From the NCBI RefSeq assembly GCF_004123805.1, contig NZ_RWJX01000004.1, forward strand, positions 1 through 64,000: a stretch of DNA of 64,000 nucleotides. Direction: 5' to 3'. Both the position numbers and the translations under genes were made by a program. The notes beneath the pieces are model-generated. The model had not been told where the DNA came from. It saw only the letters and a program-made list of their open reading frames with translations, and made no database searches. This DNA is from Cellulomonas endophytica (GTDB lineage: Bacteria > Actinomycetota > Actinomycetes > Actinomycetales > Cellulomonadaceae). Of the stretch, positions 39,322 to 46,648 are shown in pieces; the stretch's first letter is position 1; every line of letters starts with the position of its first letter.

Positions 39322-39394
39322 GCGCCTGTAGCTCAGGGGATAGAGCACCGCTCTCCTAAAGCGGGTGTCGGCAGTTCGAATCTGCCCAGGCGCA
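39322..39394 (+). tRNA. tRNA-Arg (anticodon CCT)
   Basis: A full cloverleaf: acceptor GCGCCTG/CAGGCGC, D-arm GCTC...GAGC, anticodon stem CCGCT/AGCGG with loop CTCCTAA (anticodon CCT at 39355-39357), T-arm GGCAG-TTCGAAT-CTGCC, discriminator A. It decodes AGG, rare in this genome. Its anticodon-stem region is duplicated at 45560, marking it as an integration target. Confidence 0.95.
39353..39370 (+). repeat. attL core in tRNA-Arg
   Basis: CTCCTAAAGCGGGTGTCG, running from the anticodon loop into the variable loop. It is identical to 45560-45577 and is the left junction of the integrated element. Confidence 0.8.
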
Positions 39395-39466
39395 CAGAGT
39401 GTTGTTGCAGGTCACGGCCCTGAGCGGCGACTCGCGTGCTGCGGCTGCAGCCTCCGCTTAGGGCTT

Positions 39467-39487
39467 GTGGTCAGCGTGTGGTCAGCG
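39467..39487 (+). promoter_or_regulatory. paired 10-bp repeats, left arm sites
   Basis: GTGGTCAGCG occurs at 39467 and 39478 (11-bp period), 97 bp inside attL. The same pair occurs near attR. These resemble integrase arm-type sites. The rest of the 515-bp gap 39395-39909 shows no recognisable gene. Confidence 0.55.
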
Positions 39488-39909: not shown

Positions 39910-41964
39910 ATGCCCACGCTGACGGGCGACCACGCCCTCAGCGAGGAAGTTGAGGATCTCTACAACAGCACTGAGGATGCGCAGCGCCTCGTTGACGCAG
40001 TTCGAGCGCTCAACAGTAGCGGGAGAGCGTGCGTTGGCTTGTCGGGGCCGTGGGGCGGCGGCAAAACATCGGCTCTCCGGTTGGCAATGCCGATGCTCGA
40101 GCAGTCCGGGTACAAGGTTGCCATCGTGACAGCGTGGCAGGATTCTCTCGCCGGTCCTGGCGGTGTCGCTGCGGGCCTTGCTCATGCGATCACGGGTCGG
40201 CTTCGCGGCGAGCGAGTGGCTCGCCAGCAGAGAGCCGCGAAAACGATGATCCGTGGTGCCGCGCGAGCCGGCGAAGCCGTAGGTGGGGTCGTCGGAGCGT
40301 CCACGGCAATCGCAAACGAGATTTTGGCTGAGCGAGTGGGAAACACGCAACGCGTCCGTGCCGCGCTCAAGAGTTCCGCGGAGAGTCGCAGCAACCTGCC
40401 TACTGTCGTCTTAGTGGATGACGTAGACCGTTTGGGCAGCGCGTCTCTACATGAACTGTTCGCCTCGATCTACGAATTGCACGACGACGATCCAGTCGTT
40501 TTCGTCTTGGCAATGGACCCGGATGAGGTCGCCGATAGGCTTGAAACTGGCCTTGGCTTGCGCAACGGGAACGACTACCTGGAGAAGATGTTGAACGTGA
40601 TGGTGCCGATCGCGCCACCAAGCCCGGGAATCCTGCTACAGGACGCCGTAGACCAACTGCGCCGCGTCTACGAACGGTTCAAGCTTGAGGCTGACTACAA
40701 TGTTGACGCCCGTTGTGCGAAGGTGCTCCTCCAGTGGCTTCGAACGCCGCGGGACCTTCGTCGTATCGTGAACCAGATCGAGGTCACCGCCGCCTCCGCC
40801 TCCAAGGCAGAACTCCGCGCGGAGGACCACCTCACAATTCAAATTGTCGCCGCCTTTGACAGACCCTTCTACGAACTGCTTCGTACCCATAAGGCTGACC
40901 TCGTAGGCTCGAATGGGCAGTGGCCCGCAGTGCTAGGTCCGTTCGACTCCCGCGACCATGACCCGTTGCTGCAGGCGCTGGTGGGTCCGTACCTTAGCGA
41001 CCCCGATGTAGGCGGATGGCGGACGGCTGTTCTTGAGGCCATACTTCCGCACGCGTTGCGACGGATCGGAGAGAAGAGTTTTGGTAGCGACAAGGGGCGC
41101 CTTCCTGGCTTTTTGGCGAATCCGCACTACTACGACCGGTACTTCCACCTTTCCGCCCGACTGCGAGACGTGCCCGACGGCGATGTACGCGCCGCATGGC
41201 GAGGCTTCCTCGATGAGCGCCCTTGGAGCGCCAGCTTCCGCCCCGAGTGGAAGCGCCTTGAGATGCTGGTGCTCACCAAGCTTGAAGTCGCATTTCGAGA
41301 CGGCGAACTCTCGCGCGGCGAGCCCGTTGCTGTGTCGAAACGGCTTGAAGAGGCCTGGCTCGAGGGCGATGGTGTCGTGCTTCGAGACTTCTTGCCGCAA
41401 CTAGCGCTGGGCGACATAGGCGCCGCCACGCCCGCGGAGGAGCGACGGGGCCTCATCGCTGCGCTGCTTGAGGCCAGTCATACCCCCGAGTGGCTCGTTG
41501 CATTGGCTCGTCGGATTAGGGAGCGACGAGCGCTCGAGCCTGCTGCTATGGAGAGCGCGCGCCGTGCGCTGCAGGGACACCTGGATGAAGCAGGGCGGGT
41601 TGAAACCGTAGAGCGGCTGCTCGTAGCGGGCGACGCAGAGGCGCACCTCGTGATCGCTCTGCTGGAAGGCGAGGCGTGGCTGCTTGAAGCGGGGAAGCGT
41701 TTCGACCGGACGGCGCGCCAACGTCTGGCATGGTTCGCGCTCTCTTTGGCGCCCAACTACAGTGGCTTTGCGCAGAGCGACGAAGCGCCGGTGGCCGATC
41801 CTGAGGAATGGCGCCGCCGACGCGATTACCTTATGGAGCGATGGGGACCTACGGCACTAGAAGATCTACAGGCGATCGCGGAGGCTGATGTGTGTAAGGC
41901 CATTCCCGCCGTCTATCAAAGTCTTCTGGCGAGTGAGCCTTCGGCGGCGGAGGCCCCTAGCTGA
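39910..41964 (+). CDS. KAP-family P-loop NTPase
   Basis: 684 residues from the ATG at 39910; the GTG at 39895 is an alternative, and a longer open frame upstream is non-coding in character. Walker A is GPWGGGKTS (46-54) and Walker B VVLVDDVDRL (166-175), with VVFVLAMDPDEVADRLE after it, the KAP NTPase pattern. A Gly/Ala-rich segment (116-138) sits where other members have membrane helices. The C-terminal ~350 residues are helical with no known domain. KAP members include PifA, which excludes phage T7 in E. coli. Base composition differs strongly from the flanks. Confidence 0.85.
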   Translation: MPTLTGDHALSEEVEDLYNSTEDAQRLVDAVRALNSSGRACVGLSGPWGGGKTSALRLAMPMLEQSGYKVAIVTAWQDSLAGPGGVAAGLAHAITGRLRGERVARQQRAAKTMIRGAARAGEAVGGVVGASTAIANEILAERVGNTQRVRAALKSSAESRSNLPTVVLVDDVDRLGSASLHELFASIYELHDDDPVVFVLAMDPDEVADRLETGLGLRNGNDYLEKMLNVMVPIAPPSPGILLQDAVDQLRRVYERFKLEADYNVDARCAKVLLQWLRTPRDLRRIVNQIEVTAASASKAELRAEDHLTIQIVAAFDRPFYELLRTHKADLVGSNGQWPAVLGPFDSRDHDPLLQALVGPYLSDPDVGGWRTAVLEAILPHALRRIGEKSFGSDKGRLPGFLANPHYYDRYFHLSARLRDVPDGDVRAAWRGFLDERPWSASFRPEWKRLEMLVLTKLEVAFRDGELSRGEPVAVSKRLEEAWLEGDGVVLRDFLPQLALGDIGAATPAEERRGLIAALLEASHTPEWLVALARRIRERRALEPAAMESARRALQGHLDEAGRVETVERLLVAGDAEAHLVIALLEGEAWLLEAGKRFDRTARQRLAWFALSLAPNYSGFAQSDEAPVADPEEWRRRRDYLMERWGPTALEDLQAIAEADVCKAIPAVYQSLLASEPSAAEAPS

Positions 41965-42067
41965 GTCGTCGCAGTACATTAGTCGAAACGCCTAAAGCGG
42001 TCGTGTGTCGCTTAGTCGACAGCGCCCTGGTGCTCGACAGCTGGTGCCTCAAGCCCGAGCGGCGCTG

Positions 42068-42295
42068 CTAGCAACGGTATCGCGGCAGCCGCTCCAGCGC
42101 CTGCCAGGTGGCCTCGCTTAAGAGGTGCCCGTACAGGTCCATCGTCATGGTCGCGGTGGAGTGCCCGAGGATCACCTGCACGGCCTTCACGTCCGCCCCG
42201 GCCGCGATGAGAAGCGACGCGGCGGTGTGCCGCAGGTCGTGGATCGTCGTCCCCTCGACCCTCGCCGCGCGAGTCGCATTCACGATCTCCGGCAT
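42068..42295 (-). pseudogene. tyrosine integrase, C-terminal fragment
   Basis: About 75 residues of the catalytic end: TIHDLRHTAASLLIAAGAD (conserved Arg and His) and LGHSTATMTMDLYGHLL with the nucleophilic tyrosine. A stop (TAG) lies four codons before the first ATG and no upstream half follows on this strand. It abuts an oppositely oriented integrase fragment at 42297. Confidence 0.8.
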
Positions 42296-42970: not shown

Positions 42971-43729
42971 ATGGAGCGTGTCGAGGTACCCGAAGCAGTG
43001 CGTGGACCAGTTGCAGAGTCCATGACGGCTCTGCACAGTCGCGCCGCAGGTGTCCTCGAGGAGGCGATCCAAGAGCGGTCAGAGATGCTCGGTGCCTTGC
43101 TGCAACTAGACCGCGACCTTTCTGAGTGGGAACGGCGGCTTGCGCACAAACCCGAAGGCCACCAGTTGGCGGAGGCGCGGCGGCACCTCGGCTGGGCTCT
43201 GTATACCGCCACCACTGGGCTCTACAGCTTGGCCTATAGCGCCTTACGCGTGACCCTCGAACTCAGCTTTGCGGCCGTTTACTTCTCGGCGAACGAACTT
43301 CACCGCCGAAGGTGGGTAGGAGATCGCGCGGACTTCTCGTGGGGTAAAGCAATTGACGAGAACGAGGGCGTGCTCGCTCGGGCGTTCGTAATCGAGTTCA
43401 ATGAATTCGCGGCCGAGGAGGCGGGGCCATACGCATCTCGGGCCCAGGAAAGCTATCGACGTTGTTCGCAGTTCATGCATGGCAAGTTGGCGGCCACCAG
43501 AACGGTCCCGACGGAGTTGACGTACTCGTCTGACGTGCTGAATGACTGGATTCAGACGGGTCGAAGGGTCGGCGAGGCGGTCTTGTTTCTGCTATATGTG
43601 AGGTACGGCGAGGAGCTCCTGAAGAGCGACGCTGATGGGAAGCTGGCTGCGACGCTTGAGCACTCCCTAGGCCATCTAAAGTGCGTAAGGACGGATCTCG
43701 GGCTGCCGGTTGAGGGGGCTGAGCGATGA
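42971..43729 (+). CDS. helical protein with HEPN-like Rx5H motif (module gene 1)
   Basis: 252 residues from the ATG at 42971, behind GGGGGA; a TTG at 42959 is possible. It is predicted all-helical, with a hydrophobic stretch around residues 73-105 (LYSLAYSALRVTLELSFAAVYF in pieces). Near 161-171 is SYRRCSQFMHG: R164-x5-H170 satisfies the Rx4-6H RNase motif of HEPN domains, followed by the HG often seen in related proteins. The family assignment is a motif-level inference. Its stop overlaps the ATPase start (ATGA at 43726), so the two are co-translated. Confidence 0.7.
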   Translation: MERVEVPEAVRGPVAESMTALHSRAAGVLEEAIQERSEMLGALLQLDRDLSEWERRLAHKPEGHQLAEARRHLGWALYTATTGLYSLAYSALRVTLELSFAAVYFSANELHRRRWVGDRADFSWGKAIDENEGVLARAFVIEFNEFAAEEAGPYASRAQESYRRCSQFMHGKLAATRTVPTELTYSSDVLNDWIQTGRRVGEAVLFLLYVRYGEELLKSDADGKLAATLEHSLGHLKCVRTDLGLPVEGAER

Positions 43730-45315
43730 GCCTCGACCTGTTCTTCAGGACTGAAGACATTGGTCTGGACGAGATTCTCAACTACTACGTCGAGACGTCG
43801 GCCGACCGAGACATAGTCGATGCACTCAAGAGCCGCTCGCCTGTGATCCTCCGCGGTAGCAGAGGTGTGGGAAAATCGTTCCTCCTGCGGACCGCTGAAG
43901 CCGAGTTGAAACAAGAGTTTCGGGAGAAGAGGGTTCTTCCAGTCTACCTCACGTTCGCGCGGGCCGGCCTGATCACCGCGCCCACCGCAGGCAGGTTCCA
44001 GGCCTGGATGATTGCGAAGATCTGCAACCGTATTGTCCGCGCCGCAACTACCTACGGGTTGGCTCTTCCGGCCGGCTCTGCGATCGATGCCCTCTGCGGA
44101 GGAGGGGGCACTCAGCCGAGCGCGATGGAGCAGGTCGAGTCGATCTTCGAAGATGCCTGGAAGGGGGGTACGCAGCCCGCAACGCCGATTGAGCCTCCGG
44201 GAGTCGACGTCCTGGGTGATGCCATAGAAGATCTGTGCCGCTCTGCGGGGCTGCGCCGGATCATCCTTCTGGTCGATGAAGCTGCCCACGTCTTCATCCC
44301 TGAACAACAGCGCCAGTTCTTCAGCCTGATGCGTGACCTCCGGAGCCCGTACATGGCCGTCAAGGCGGCTGTGTACCCAGGGGCGACCTCGTACGGGCCG
44401 ACCTTCCAACCAAATCACGACGCCACCGTGCTCAGCGTCGATCGATCGGTCACTGACGACGACTACGCCGCGAAGATGCGCGAGATCGTCTACAAGCAGG
44501 AGGCCTCGCTCCGCCGCGCGATTGAGGCGAATGGCGAGGTTTTCGACACGCTCGCTTTCGCCGCTACGGGAAACCCGAGAATTTTGCTGAAGACACTGGC
44601 GAGAACCTCCCCCTTTAATCGTAGGAACGTCCAGGAGTCGATTCGCGAGTACTACCGCGAGGAAATCTGGGCAGAGCACTCAAGCCTGTCCGAGCGCTAC
44701 CCCGGCCATGCAGATTTGGTTGACTGGGGAAGGCGATTCCTTGAAGGTGATGTGTTGCCGGCGCTCTATAGGAGGAACGCGGCAGCTCCTGAAACCTCTT
44801 CATTCATCTGGATTCACCGGAACGCTCCGCAGCCTGTGAGAGAAGCCCTTCGGCTCCTCTGCTATAGCGGCGTGCTGCAGGAGGGCGTGTCTGGGATCCG
44901 TGCTACCAGGAGCGAGGTAGGCACTCGATACATGGTGAACCTGGGGTGCCAGTTCGCGCTGGATGCAGATCCAGTCGGGTACGGCAGCACTGTCCGTAGC
45001 GCACTTTCTGTGAAGCGAATGGTCGAGTTCGGGGCAAATCATCCCGCCTACCGCCCGATCGATGAGCTTTCGCTAGATGCGATCGGAACGGAGGGCAACG
45101 AAGCGCTGCTCCAGCAGTTGAAGAAGCCCGTCGACCGGCTTGACATCACATACTTTCTTCGCGAGCGCCTCCACAGTTTGGAGCTCGAGACAATCGGCGA
45201 CGTACTAGCTTCGAATGAGCAGAAGTTCATGGAGGCGTGGTACGTGGGGCCGACCCGCGCTCGCCAGATGCGCAACGCTGCGATTGCCGCGGTGCTTGAG
45301 TACCTGTCGGGTTGA
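43726..45315 (+). CDS. ORC/CDC6-like AAA ATPase with C-terminal HhH tail (module gene 2)
   Basis: 529 residues. Walker A is GSRGVGKS (44-51) and Walker B ILLVDEAAH (180-188), with FAATGNPRILLKTLAR as the sensor-2-like region, the layout of bacterial ORC/CDC6-like STAND-type ATPases. A winged-helix-like segment follows (EALRLLCYSGVLQEGVSG). The last ~60 residues (VDRLDITYFLRERLHSLELE, TIGDVLASNEQKFMEAWYVG) resemble the helix-hairpin-helix of the RNA polymerase alpha C-terminal domain, hinting at DNA binding. It probably senses or remodels something and controls the coupled gene 1 product. Function is unproven. Confidence 0.78.
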   Translation: MSLDLFFRTEDIGLDEILNYYVETSADRDIVDALKSRSPVILRGSRGVGKSFLLRTAEAELKQEFREKRVLPVYLTFARAGLITAPTAGRFQAWMIAKICNRIVRAATTYGLALPAGSAIDALCGGGGTQPSAMEQVESIFEDAWKGGTQPATPIEPPGVDVLGDAIEDLCRSAGLRRIILLVDEAAHVFIPEQQRQFFSLMRDLRSPYMAVKAAVYPGATSYGPTFQPNHDATVLSVDRSVTDDDYAAKMREIVYKQEASLRRAIEANGEVFDTLAFAATGNPRILLKTLARTSPFNRRNVQESIREYYREEIWAEHSSLSERYPGHADLVDWGRRFLEGDVLPALYRRNAAAPETSSFIWIHRNAPQPVREALRLLCYSGVLQEGVSGIRATRSEVGTRYMVNLGCQFALDADPVGYGSTVRSALSVKRMVEFGANHPAYRPIDELSLDAIGTEGNEALLQQLKKPVDRLDITYFLRERLHSLELETIGDVLASNEQKFMEAWYVGPTRARQMRNAAIAAVLEYLSG

Positions 45316-45456: not shown

Positions 45457-45477
45457 GGGGTCAGCGCGTGGTCAGCG
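45457..45477 (+). promoter_or_regulatory. paired 10-bp repeats, right arm sites
   Basis: GGGGTCAGCG at 45457 and GTGGTCAGCG at 45468, again with an 11-bp period and in the same orientation as the pair at 39467. They lie 83 bp before attR. Confidence 0.55.
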
Positions 45478-45559: not shown

Positions 45560-45577
45560 CTCCTAAAGCGGGTGTCG
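45560..45577 (+). repeat. attR core
   Basis: CTCCTAAAGCGGGTGTCG, identical to 39353-39370 in the tRNA. The sequence after it does not continue the tRNA 3' half, so the host remnant has been deleted or has drifted. Confidence 0.75.
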
Positions 45578-45604: not shown

Positions 45605-46648
45605 TCAGTGCGGCGGCGGGGGAGCCGTGGTGTCGCGGAGGGTGAGGGACGTCGCCAGCTCTACGTGGCGGGAGGCCGGGCGGGTGCCGCCTGACATGGC
45701 GACGACGGTCTGCACCGCCATGCGGCCCATGCCGTCGAGGTGCTGGTGGACGGTCGTCAGGGGTGGCGTGGTCCACGCCGCCTGCGGGGTGTCGTCGAAG
45801 CCGACGACGCTGAGCCGCTCCGGCACGGGGACGCCCAGGATTCGCGCCGCCGCCAGGACGCCGACGGCGATCTCGTCGTCGCCGGCCATGATCGCTGTGG
45901 GCGGGTCAGGCAGGGCCAGCAGCTCGCGGCCGTAGATCTCGCCGGAGGCGACGTCGAAGGAGCCGGTGCGCATGAGCGCGGCGTCGACCTCGAGGTGCGC
46001 CGCGTCGAGCGCAGCCCGGTAGCCGTAGAGGCGGTCGCGGGCGGCGATGGAGGCCTCGGGGCCGCCGATCCAGCCGATGCGTCGGTGGCCCAGGCCGATG
46101 AGGTGGTCGGTGGCGGCGCGCGCGCCGGCCCAGTTGCTCGAGCCCACGCTCACCATGCGGCGGTGCTGGGTGTCGACGGGGTCGACCATGACGAAGGGCA
46201 GGTTCGCGTCGGCTGCCGCGTCGAGCAGCGCGTCGGGCGCTGACAGTGTCAGCCCGACGATCCCGACGACACCGGAGTCGGCCTGGTCGGACACCCACGC
46301 GTGCGCGGTGCTGCGCTGCCGGCGGCCCTGCTTGTCCGGCGCCAGCCGGGTGATGAGGTCCAGCCCCGCCTCCGTGGCGGCGGCGAGCACGCCCTGGAAG
46401 ACGTTGAGGATGTAGGGCGAGGCCGGGATGTCGAAGACGACGGCGACCGCGCGCCGCGCCGACTCCGGGCTCGGCTGCGTCGATGAGCGGTAACCCAGGG
46501 ACGCCACCGCGGCCAGGACCTTCTCGCGCGTGCTGGCGGCCACGTCCTGGCGCCCGTTGAGGGTCTTCGACACCGTCGCCGTCGACACCCCTGCCGCGCG
46601 CGCGACGTCCGCGAGCGTCGACCGCCCGTCTGCCGCACGTCCGGCCAC
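45605..46648 (-). CDS. LacI-family repressor of the xylosidase locus
   Basis: 347 residues. HTH and hinge are STLADVARAAGVSTATVSKTLNGRQDVAASTREKVLAAVASLGYRSS (in pieces), followed by a periplasmic-binding-like sensor (AVVFDIPASPYILNVFQGVL, VGIVGLTLSAPD, RRIGWIGGPEASIAARDR). It is divergent from GH39 and most likely represses it and the ABC genes in the absence of xylose or xylo-oligosaccharide. Two LacI-type dyads lie in the shared intergenic region. Its 3' end is 28 bp from attR. Confidence 0.9.
   Translation of the reverse strand: MAGRAADGRSTLADVARAAGVSTATVSKTLNGRQDVAASTREKVLAAVASLGYRSSTQPSPESARRAVAVVFDIPASPYILNVFQGVLAAATEAGLDLITRLAPDKQGRRQRSTAHAWVSDQADSGVVGIVGLTLSAPDALLDAAADANLPFVMVDPVDTQHRRMVSVGSSNWAGARAATDHLIGLGHRRIGWIGGPEASIAARDRLYGYRAALDAAHLEVDAALMRTGSFDVASGEIYGRELLALPDPPTAIMAGDDEIAVGVLAAARILGVPVPERLSVVGFDDTPQAAWTTPPLTTVHQHLDGMGRMAVQTVVAMSGGTRPASRHVELATSLTLRDTTAPPPPH

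Follow-up and report, generated by a model that had tools for sequence, protein, structure and literature searches.

A pair of overlapping genes in the actinobacterium Cellulomonas endophytica most likely constitutes an uncatalogued anti-phage system. The pair lies within the first 64,000 nucleotides (nt) of contig NZ_RWJX01000004.1 (assembly GCF_004123805.1), and this whole stretch of DNA is referred to here as the window. Gene 1 encodes a protein modelled with a HEPN fold and predicted to act as a ribonuclease (RNase) effector, and gene 2 encodes an ATPase whose C-terminal domain resembles the C-terminal domain of the RNA polymerase alpha subunit (alpha-CTD). In the reading that we prefer, to which we would give a probability of roughly 0.6, the two genes form a self-contained, mobile module directed against phages or other mobile elements, in which the ATPase would gate the HEPN RNase and the outcome would be abortive infection. 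What was computed for the pair comprises the HEPN motif and modelled fold of gene 1, the type of ATPase that gene 2 encodes and the identity of its C-terminal domain, the pairing and co-divergence of the two genes, their foreign composition, and the phage and defence genes found around them.

The HEPN-fold protein and its partner ATPase

The two open reading frames, of 252 and 529 codons, have no internal stops and are joined by the four shared bases ATGA, the overlap that an earlier note on this DNA had described. The product of gene 1, which the same note had called helical, gave an all-helical AlphaFold2 model built on 14 aligned relatives (mean predicted local distance difference test score, pLDDT, 94.1; predicted template modelling score, pTM, 0.89). 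When this model was compared with solved structures by VIA-align, the seven best rows were all HEPN-type (Z 8.6-10.8, root-mean-square deviation, rmsd, 2.8-5.1, 115-135 residues aligned), led by 2hsb (Z 10.8, rmsd 2.8, 125 aligned) and continuing with the sacsin HEPN domain 3o10, 1ufb, 4nqf, 2q00, 1wol and 1o3u (Z 8.6); the word HEPN is absent from the structure titles of 1ufb and 2q00, and for these two the label is ours. Further down, unrelated helical proteins appeared from Z 8.3 downward and the HEPN-MNT toxins at Z 7.7 or less. Gene 1 is modelled with confidence, and the solved folds closest to it are HEPN domains; the earlier note had named a non-HEPN fold of gene 1 as an outcome that would count against its proposal, and such a fold was not found.

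A HEPN motif, R163-x6-H170, is located at the end of the helix formed by residues 145-169, which in the model stops right before H170. Across the 14 rows aligned, H170 never changes and R163 is kept in 13, whereas position 164 varies (R, H, S, Y, E or K), which rules out R164 as the catalytic arginine. The R164-x5-H170 motif of the earlier note was thus off by one, and the R164A mutation that it proposed would fall on a non-conserved residue, R163A/H170A being the fitting pair. The definition of HEPN domains, as given in passages of PMC3710099, places Rx4-6H at the end of helix 3 or the start of the next loop, typically with a polar residue after the arginine, includes an acidic residue in helix 2, and also lists metal-independent RNase activity. 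The spacing in gene 1 falls within the published range, and where R163 is kept, which is in 13 rows, the next residue is polar in 12 (R, H, S, E or K) and Y in L003. E97, invariant in all 14 rows, lies in the long helix 85-107 that precedes the motif helix, in agreement with the acidic residue of helix 2; the published Ex3[KR] form is not present at E97 of the window's protein. Searches of gene 1 against Pfam, PADLOC and NCBIfam gave no match at E <=1, the HEPN family profile found only designed or unrelated helical proteins among the PDB sequences, and phmmer against the PDB with gene 1 or gene 2 as a single sequence returned nothing useful.

Gene 2 matches the Pfam family PF24389, 'ORC-CDC6-like', with 40.8 bits against a cut-off of 27, the best stretch covering only residues 7-60, mostly the P-loop region. 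The Walker A and Walker B motifs of an ORC/CDC6-like ATPase, which had been recognised in the earlier note, are both borne out by the alignment of 14 relatives: G44, R46, G47, G49 and K50 of GSRGVGKS are invariant, S45, V48 and S51 being variable, and Walker B ends in LLVDEAAH, of which D184-H188 are invariant. The GNPR at residues 282-285 is a candidate sensor 2. The structure model of gene 2 (pLDDT 84.2, pTM 0.77) was closest in VIA-align to the archaeal ATPases 2qen (Z 18.3, 315 residues aligned) and 2fna (Z 16.6), followed by the immune nucleoside triphosphatases (NTPases) RPP1, a plant NLR (Z 16.1), CED-4 (15.8) and NRC4 (15.5), by Cdc6/Orc1 (2qby, Z 15.0), and by TnsC and MuB chains (Z 12.4-14.3). 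Gene 2 is an ORC/CDC6-STAND-type ATPase with intact Walker A and B motifs.

The C-terminal domain of gene 2 is, on the evidence of profile comparison, specifically alpha-CTD-like in its fold, and the resemblance to RpoA that the earlier note had seen in this tail is upheld. When the gene 2 family profile was searched against the PDB, 31 of the 40 sequences at E <=10 were RpoA, the top six among them (E 9.1e-4 to 3.6e-3), and they align to the C-terminal region of the profile; an ArsR-type regulator, three McrB and four NLRP14 sequences (in the P-loop region), and one dehydrogenase made up the remaining nine. In hhalign the domain scored 47.2 against the RpoA alpha-CTD (probability 96.0), 15.7 against HHH_5 and 23.9 against HHH_2, and the maxima over 100 column shuffles were 16.2, 15.8 and 18.4, respectively; the test sets were drawn from related genomes, with 27 of 30 RpoA, 29 of 30 HHH_5 and 29 of 30 HHH_2 loci kept after filtering for length and score. 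PF03118 was absent from the matches of gene 2 as a single sequence at E <=1. G508 aligns with the hairpin glycine of alpha-CTD, an invariant R511 and a nearly invariant R513 are features of the family, and the terminal EYLSG, which ends exactly at the stop, is near-constant in the ATPases of the class to which the window's pair belongs (class I, defined below).

In the hhalign alignment F477 and E480 occupy the columns taken as R265 and N268 of alpha-CTD, which we take to be its DNA-contact residues (E. coli numbering). The domain is therefore alpha-CTD-like and no functional copy of alpha-CTD, and, judging from these two columns, any binding of DNA or polymerase partners may differ from that of alpha-CTD. 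RNA polymerase may be engaged through this tail, as suggested in the earlier note, since the resemblance to alpha-CTD is real, but the two contact columns do not carry the residues of alpha-CTD. The domain is either derived from alpha-CTD or convergent on it. The idea that it serves as a bait for ADP-ribosylation at R265, a role that we assume for this residue, was also considered and is weakened, since that column is F477 in gene 2. Elsewhere in the same genome an RNA_pol_A_CTD match other than RpoA is found at C87:64334-64510, within a 1407-codon open frame that is perhaps a PglW-type defence kinase; PglW-type kinases carry an alpha-CTD-like domain according to a passage of PMC12839542.

Conservation, mobility and surroundings of the pair

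Loci with the arrangement found in the window are referred to as class I, and 16 of them are intact: the window, L001-L005, L010 (on a Planktothrix plasmid), L015-L022 (viral contigs) and L029. In all 16 the HEPN gene is directly upstream of the ATPase gene; a lack of joint conservation, which the earlier note had named as evidence against its proposal, was not observed. The gap between the two genes ranges from -4 to +24 nt in the 15 tabulated loci, a table that omits L029, whose HEPN gene was shown by blast. In L022 the HEPN gene is weakly similar and is without R163. Pairwise distances between HEPN proteins co-vary with those between ATPases (r 0.925, 15 loci), none of 5,000 permutations giving a correlation as high, and in 15 of 15 loci the AT content of the pair exceeds that of its flanks (composition of pair versus flanks 0.61 vs 0.68 in the window, 0.54 vs 0.71 in Amycolatopsis and 0.34 vs 0.50 in L018). 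Three further loci (L008, L009 and L032) were set aside, being partial, weak ATPase matches with no HEPN match in the fetched flanks. A viral scan seeded with the HEPN protein confirmed 7 loci out of 37 stretches, all of them on contigs already found through the ATPase, and therefore showed no solitary HEPN gene.

Class I ranges over Actinobacteria, a cyanobacterial (Planktothrix) plasmid, a P2-like phage and other phage contigs. None of the 35 other genomes searched in the window's genus gave a match, and a search of 396 genomes of the phylum, including its own, gave three matches, namely the strong match of its own copy and two weak ones. Of 295 genomes in the genus to which L004 belongs (Streptomyces, according to its record), 5 matched, with two full class I loci (one being the search centre), one class I fragment, one locus of the second class described below and one weak partial match. 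Searched by tblastn against 50,697 phage records, neither gene 2 nor the L018 ATPase gave a match at E 1e-5, and blastn of the L018 pair against E. coli genomes gave none. The HEPN-ATPase pair is a mobile unit.

The defence context of the pair is strong. On the P2-like phage contig L019 the genes follow in the order origin-nicking protein (phrog_91), DNA methyltransferase, an unidentified gene, the pair, portal (phrog_68) and major head protein (phrog_70). A phage-type primase (phrog_2249), which we take to be P4-like, is carried by the L018 contig, and portal, tail and endolysin genes are found on L015, L016 and L017, respectively. The Planktothrix plasmid pair is enclosed by an SspB-SspC-SspD operon, together with genes that resemble helicases and nucleases, and the pairs of L004 and L005 adjoin an SRA-HNH gene and a DUF3427 PLD helicase. 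The site of the pair on L019, between the origin-nicking and portal genes, is one that part of PMC9122126 presents, as the gpA-gpQ interval of P2-like phages, as an anti-phage hotspot. In both L019 (3635-5762) and L021 (4968-7092) the pair is directly preceded by a gene for a DNA methyltransferase and a gene of 330 aa without known function, with 83-84% identity between the two phage contigs.

A profile built from both branches brought up further, more distant ATPases. In a second, sister class (class II, 18 loci: L011, L012, L013, L028, L030, L150-L159 and L162-L164) the ATPase is coupled to a different, downstream HEPN-like protein in 18 of 18 loci, several of these being near-copies. The class II ATPases carry a zinc ribbon ahead of the C-terminal domain (all three of the members scanned), and in an alignment of 13 of their HEPN-like partners >=90% of the rows show R-H-x3-H with E-x-Y-x-R upstream of it. 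In a tree of 31 of the 36 ATPase rows (L154, L156, L157, L164 and L030 being left out), class I (support 91/85, with the long row L022) and class II (support 100/98) each lie on one side of a branch. An N6-methyltransferase adjoins class II in 11 of 17 examined loci (L030 left out; L159 divergent), and the seven of these loci that are in the tree form one clade (support 100/99). Because one ATPase lineage is joined to two HEPN-like partners on opposite sides, these arrangements suggest that controlling a HEPN RNase is the job of the ATPase.

Among 5,426 complete E. coli genomes, 148 carry class II at >=99% identity (145 over >=80% of the query), that of E. coli HS being one. The one such region that was opened, in E. 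coli JNE170426 (L165 7001-10956), holds an N6-methyltransferase, an ORC ATPase and a HEPN-like protein, named in RefSeq as HsdM-family methyltransferase, ORC-CDC6 family AAA ATPase and hypothetical protein; the order is tRNA-Thr, integrase, the class II genes, and IS1 with a broken gene, and BREX-1 genes start 2.6 kb downstream. The class II methyltransferase strongly matches the PADLOC model 'MTase_II'. Two other loci, L160 (5114-7404) and L161 (4087-6362), which we call class III, have an ORC-like ATPase with an alpha-CTD/helix-hairpin-helix-like tail after a protein of 256-261 aa; in L161 this upstream protein has no family match, and the next gene looks by eye like a P2 portal.

In the window itself the pair is in an island at a tRNA-Arg (CCT) gene (Table 1), which agrees with the genomic element proposed in the earlier note. 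The exact 18-nt repeat at its ends has 2 matches in the 64 kb where 0.03 would be expected, and no third place was found at <=3 mismatches; a second, inner repeat of 19 nt, 95% identical, occurs 80-100 nt inward of each end (39469-39487 and 45459-45477). A related 14-nt stretch is found at 41987. On the right side of the island is a LacI-type gene with its stop at 45605. The right repeat is without the 3' half of the tRNA after it, and a clean integration is therefore not claimed; no empty integration site was found in the stretches fetched for 11 relatives, whose right-flank loci have neither the core repeat nor a tRNA. The island is probably an old, decayed element, because it contains a KAP-family NTPase and the remnant of a tyrosine integrase. 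The KAP NTPase is, from its sequence matches, a second candidate exclusion gene in the island.

Table 1. Positions in the window of the paired genes, their motifs and domains, and other features of the island
Feature	Position	Strand	Basis
Gene 1, HEPN-fold protein, predicted RNase effector (252 aa)	42971..43729	+	Open reading frame and translation, AlphaFold2 model
HEPN motif R163-x6-H170 (in YRRCSQFMHG), end of helix 145-169	43457..43480	+	Alignment and model
Gene 2, ORC/CDC6-STAND-type ATPase with alpha-CTD-like C-terminus (529 aa)	43726..45315	+	PF24389, VIA-align
Walker A GSRGVGKS, residues 44-51	43855..43878	+	Alignments
Walker B acidic pair D184 E185 (in LLVDEAAH)	44275..44280	+	Invariant in 14 rows
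GNPR, residues 282-285, invariant in class I, candidate sensor 2	44569..44580	+	Alignments
RNA polymerase alpha-CTD-like helix-hairpin-helix domain, residues 467-529, ending in EYLSG	45124..45312	+	
tRNA-Arg (CCT), left edge of island	39322..39395	+	
18-nt direct repeat, left copy, within tRNA-Arg (CCT), putative att core	39353..39370	+	
18-nt direct repeat, right copy, putative att core, without tRNA 3' half after it	45560..45577	+	
KAP-family P-loop NTPase, PifA-like by PADLOC, same island	39910..41964	+	PF07693 E 8.7e-23; PADLOC PifA 5.2e-29
Tyrosine integrase, C-terminal remnant	42068..42295	-	PF00589 4.5e-11, profile positions 120-169 of 172

Probable mechanism and alternative explanations

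An ATPase that releases a HEPN effector would fit both the anatomy of the pair and the known ATPase-HEPN systems. Gene 2 would probably be a nucleotide-switch ATPase whose alpha-CTD-like domain contacts nucleic acid or a transcription-related target, and in the uninfected cell it would hold the HEPN protein inactive. Once a nucleic acid or protein of an invader is sensed, ATP binding or hydrolysis, together with oligomerisation, would reshape the complex, and gene 1 would cleave RNA through R163/H170, so that translation would stop and the infection would be aborted. The RNase activity, its inhibition by the ATPase, the trigger and the abortive infection are the steps that we infer. The nearest precedents for such a mechanism are RloC and PrrC (in passages of PMC3710099) and HEPN-DUF499 (in passages of PMC12839542).

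The alpha-CTD-like domain provides a concrete and testable idea of what is sensed. Activators of the P2 Ogr and P4 Delta type seize host transcription through alpha-CTD. It could be imagined, though we regard this as a long shot, that the domain is a decoy or docking module, such that invaders are sensed on engaging the mimic, whereupon the ATPase would license a HEPN RNase that is itself interchangeable. Were this true, such systems would form a class that guards the transcription machinery of the host, and a single ATPase lineage would have been combined with two or more HEPN effectors that look unrelated to each other. The three-gene class II systems of E. coli, including that of strain HS, make the question testable in a standard host.

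Several observations weigh against an ATPase-gated HEPN module. The Z scores of gene 1 to HEPN structures (8.6-10.8) fall in the range that is ambiguous for helical bundles in VIA-align, and Foldseek gave nothing significant for gene 1, the best match having E 0.49 and the HEPN-type 1ufb ranking fourth (E 0.82, probability 0.77); because Foldseek on its own is not significant, the fold call rests on the coherent top rows of VIA-align together with the motif. The divergent relative L022 has G at the position of the motif arginine R163. In one Streptomyces (L031/L166) there is an ATPase remnant of 116 residues, 78% identical to L004, with no HEPN match in 6 kb, and with this remnant counted, 16 of the 17 class I places have the HEPN gene. 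The pairs of L001-L003 stand alone amid chromosomal genes that look ordinary by eye. Between the HEPN proteins of class I and class II no sequence homology was detectable (probability 0.1 and 0.3), and only 3 of the 8 class II partners scanned match the Pfam family HEPN_RiboL-PSP, weakly and all below the cut-off.

The pair could also be a toxin-antitoxin or addiction module, in which the HEPN RNase is the toxin and the ATPase the antitoxin, and which maintains an island, prophage or plasmid instead of sensing phage; we consider this unlikely, although it deserves to be kept in mind. Tight pairing of two genes, often on mobile elements, is what such a module would show, and HEPN-MNT pairs and pairs of a HEPN protein with a ParA-like ATPase have been proposed as such in passages of PMC3710099. 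However, an ATPase of 529 aa of the STAND/ORC type with a C-terminal domain of its own is large for an antitoxin, and the DNA methyltransferase of class II would be superfluous for a plain addiction module, a dual role being still compatible with it. The same methyltransferases, in 11 of 17 class II loci, favour another explanation, in which the pair reads a DNA modification such as phosphorothioate or methylation and serves as an accessory effector or backup for neighbouring modification systems. Class I is also found within an SspBCD operon, beside SRA-HNH genes and, in L019 and L021, shortly after genes for DNA methyltransferases. What makes this explanation rather improbable is that several of the loci are near-copies, and that no modification gene was recognised by eye, in the stretches read, beside the window's pair or those of L001-L003; class I therefore cannot depend on one in cis.

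It is hardly credible that the ATPase is a TnsC/MuB-like target selector for transposition or integration, with the helical protein as its partner and with no role in defence. TnsC and MuB are among the structural matches of gene 2, and the pair is often in mobile elements, but no transposase was recognised by eye directly beside class I pairs, and the HEPN motif is conserved. A TnsC/MuB-like ATPase was rejected as the principal reading, the archaeal STAND-type ATPases and the NLR proteins being closer matches.

Relation to known defence systems

In PADLOC v2 and NCBIfam 20.0 no model fits gene 1 of the window, and gene 2 is matched only weakly, for example by DS41_1 (21 bits against 370). The ATPase and HEPN proteins of class II and class III that were scanned had no well-fitting PADLOC model and passed no NCBIfam cut-off, and those of Planktothrix, scanned with PADLOC only, fitted no model. 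No description of the HEPN-ATPase pair was found in the open-access literature, supplements being outside the search, and these results agree with the earlier note, which knew of no characterised system with this exact pair. Gene 2 exceeds the curated cut-off of PF24389, the RefSeq 'ORC-CDC6 family AAA ATPase', which supplies a family name only. Passages of the phosphorothioate paper PMC10853773 describe the Orc/CDC6 family as a mainstay of conflict systems, and those passages are without this pair. Among the validated systems reported in passages of the DefensePredictor paper PMC13092281 are ones with HEPN domains and ones with P-loop domains, DS-41 being named there, and class II may overlap with systems of that paper.

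Among the systems described, the HEPN-fused DUF499 ATPase systems (BREX-related type 1, or Hma; passages of PMC12839542) resemble the pair in combining a HEPN RNase with an AAA+ ATPase of the STAND/ORC-Cdc6 type in defence loci, and BREX-related type 1 has an N6-methyltransferase, as do most class II loci. In those passages, however, HEPN-DUF499 is a single fusion protein that has a BrxC-like domain triad and is accompanied by a helicase gene, while the window has two genes and an alpha-CTD-like C-terminus. No helicase or methyltransferase was recognised by eye beside the window's pair, which thus does not qualify as HEPN-DUF499. RloC and PrrC, as presented in part of PMC3710099, are likewise ATPase-controlled HEPN RNases of anti-phage defence, but in them an ABC ATPase is fused to the HEPN domain, whereas the ORC/STAND ATPase of the window is encoded by a separate gene. 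The SspBCD phosphorothioate system encloses one class I pair, that of Planktothrix, and none was recognised beside the pair of the window. The ATPase of PARIS, as we presume, belongs to a different family than gene 2. PARIS, which comes from the survey of P2/P4 hotspots and is composed of the AAA+ ATPase AriA and the Toprim protein AriB, is likewise a two-gene cassette of ATPase and effector (passages of PMC9122126), although its effector is of the Toprim type and that of the window is HEPN. While ATPase-gated HEPN RNases are already known as a kind, what would be new here is a probable ATPase-gated HEPN defence with an alpha-CTD-like domain.

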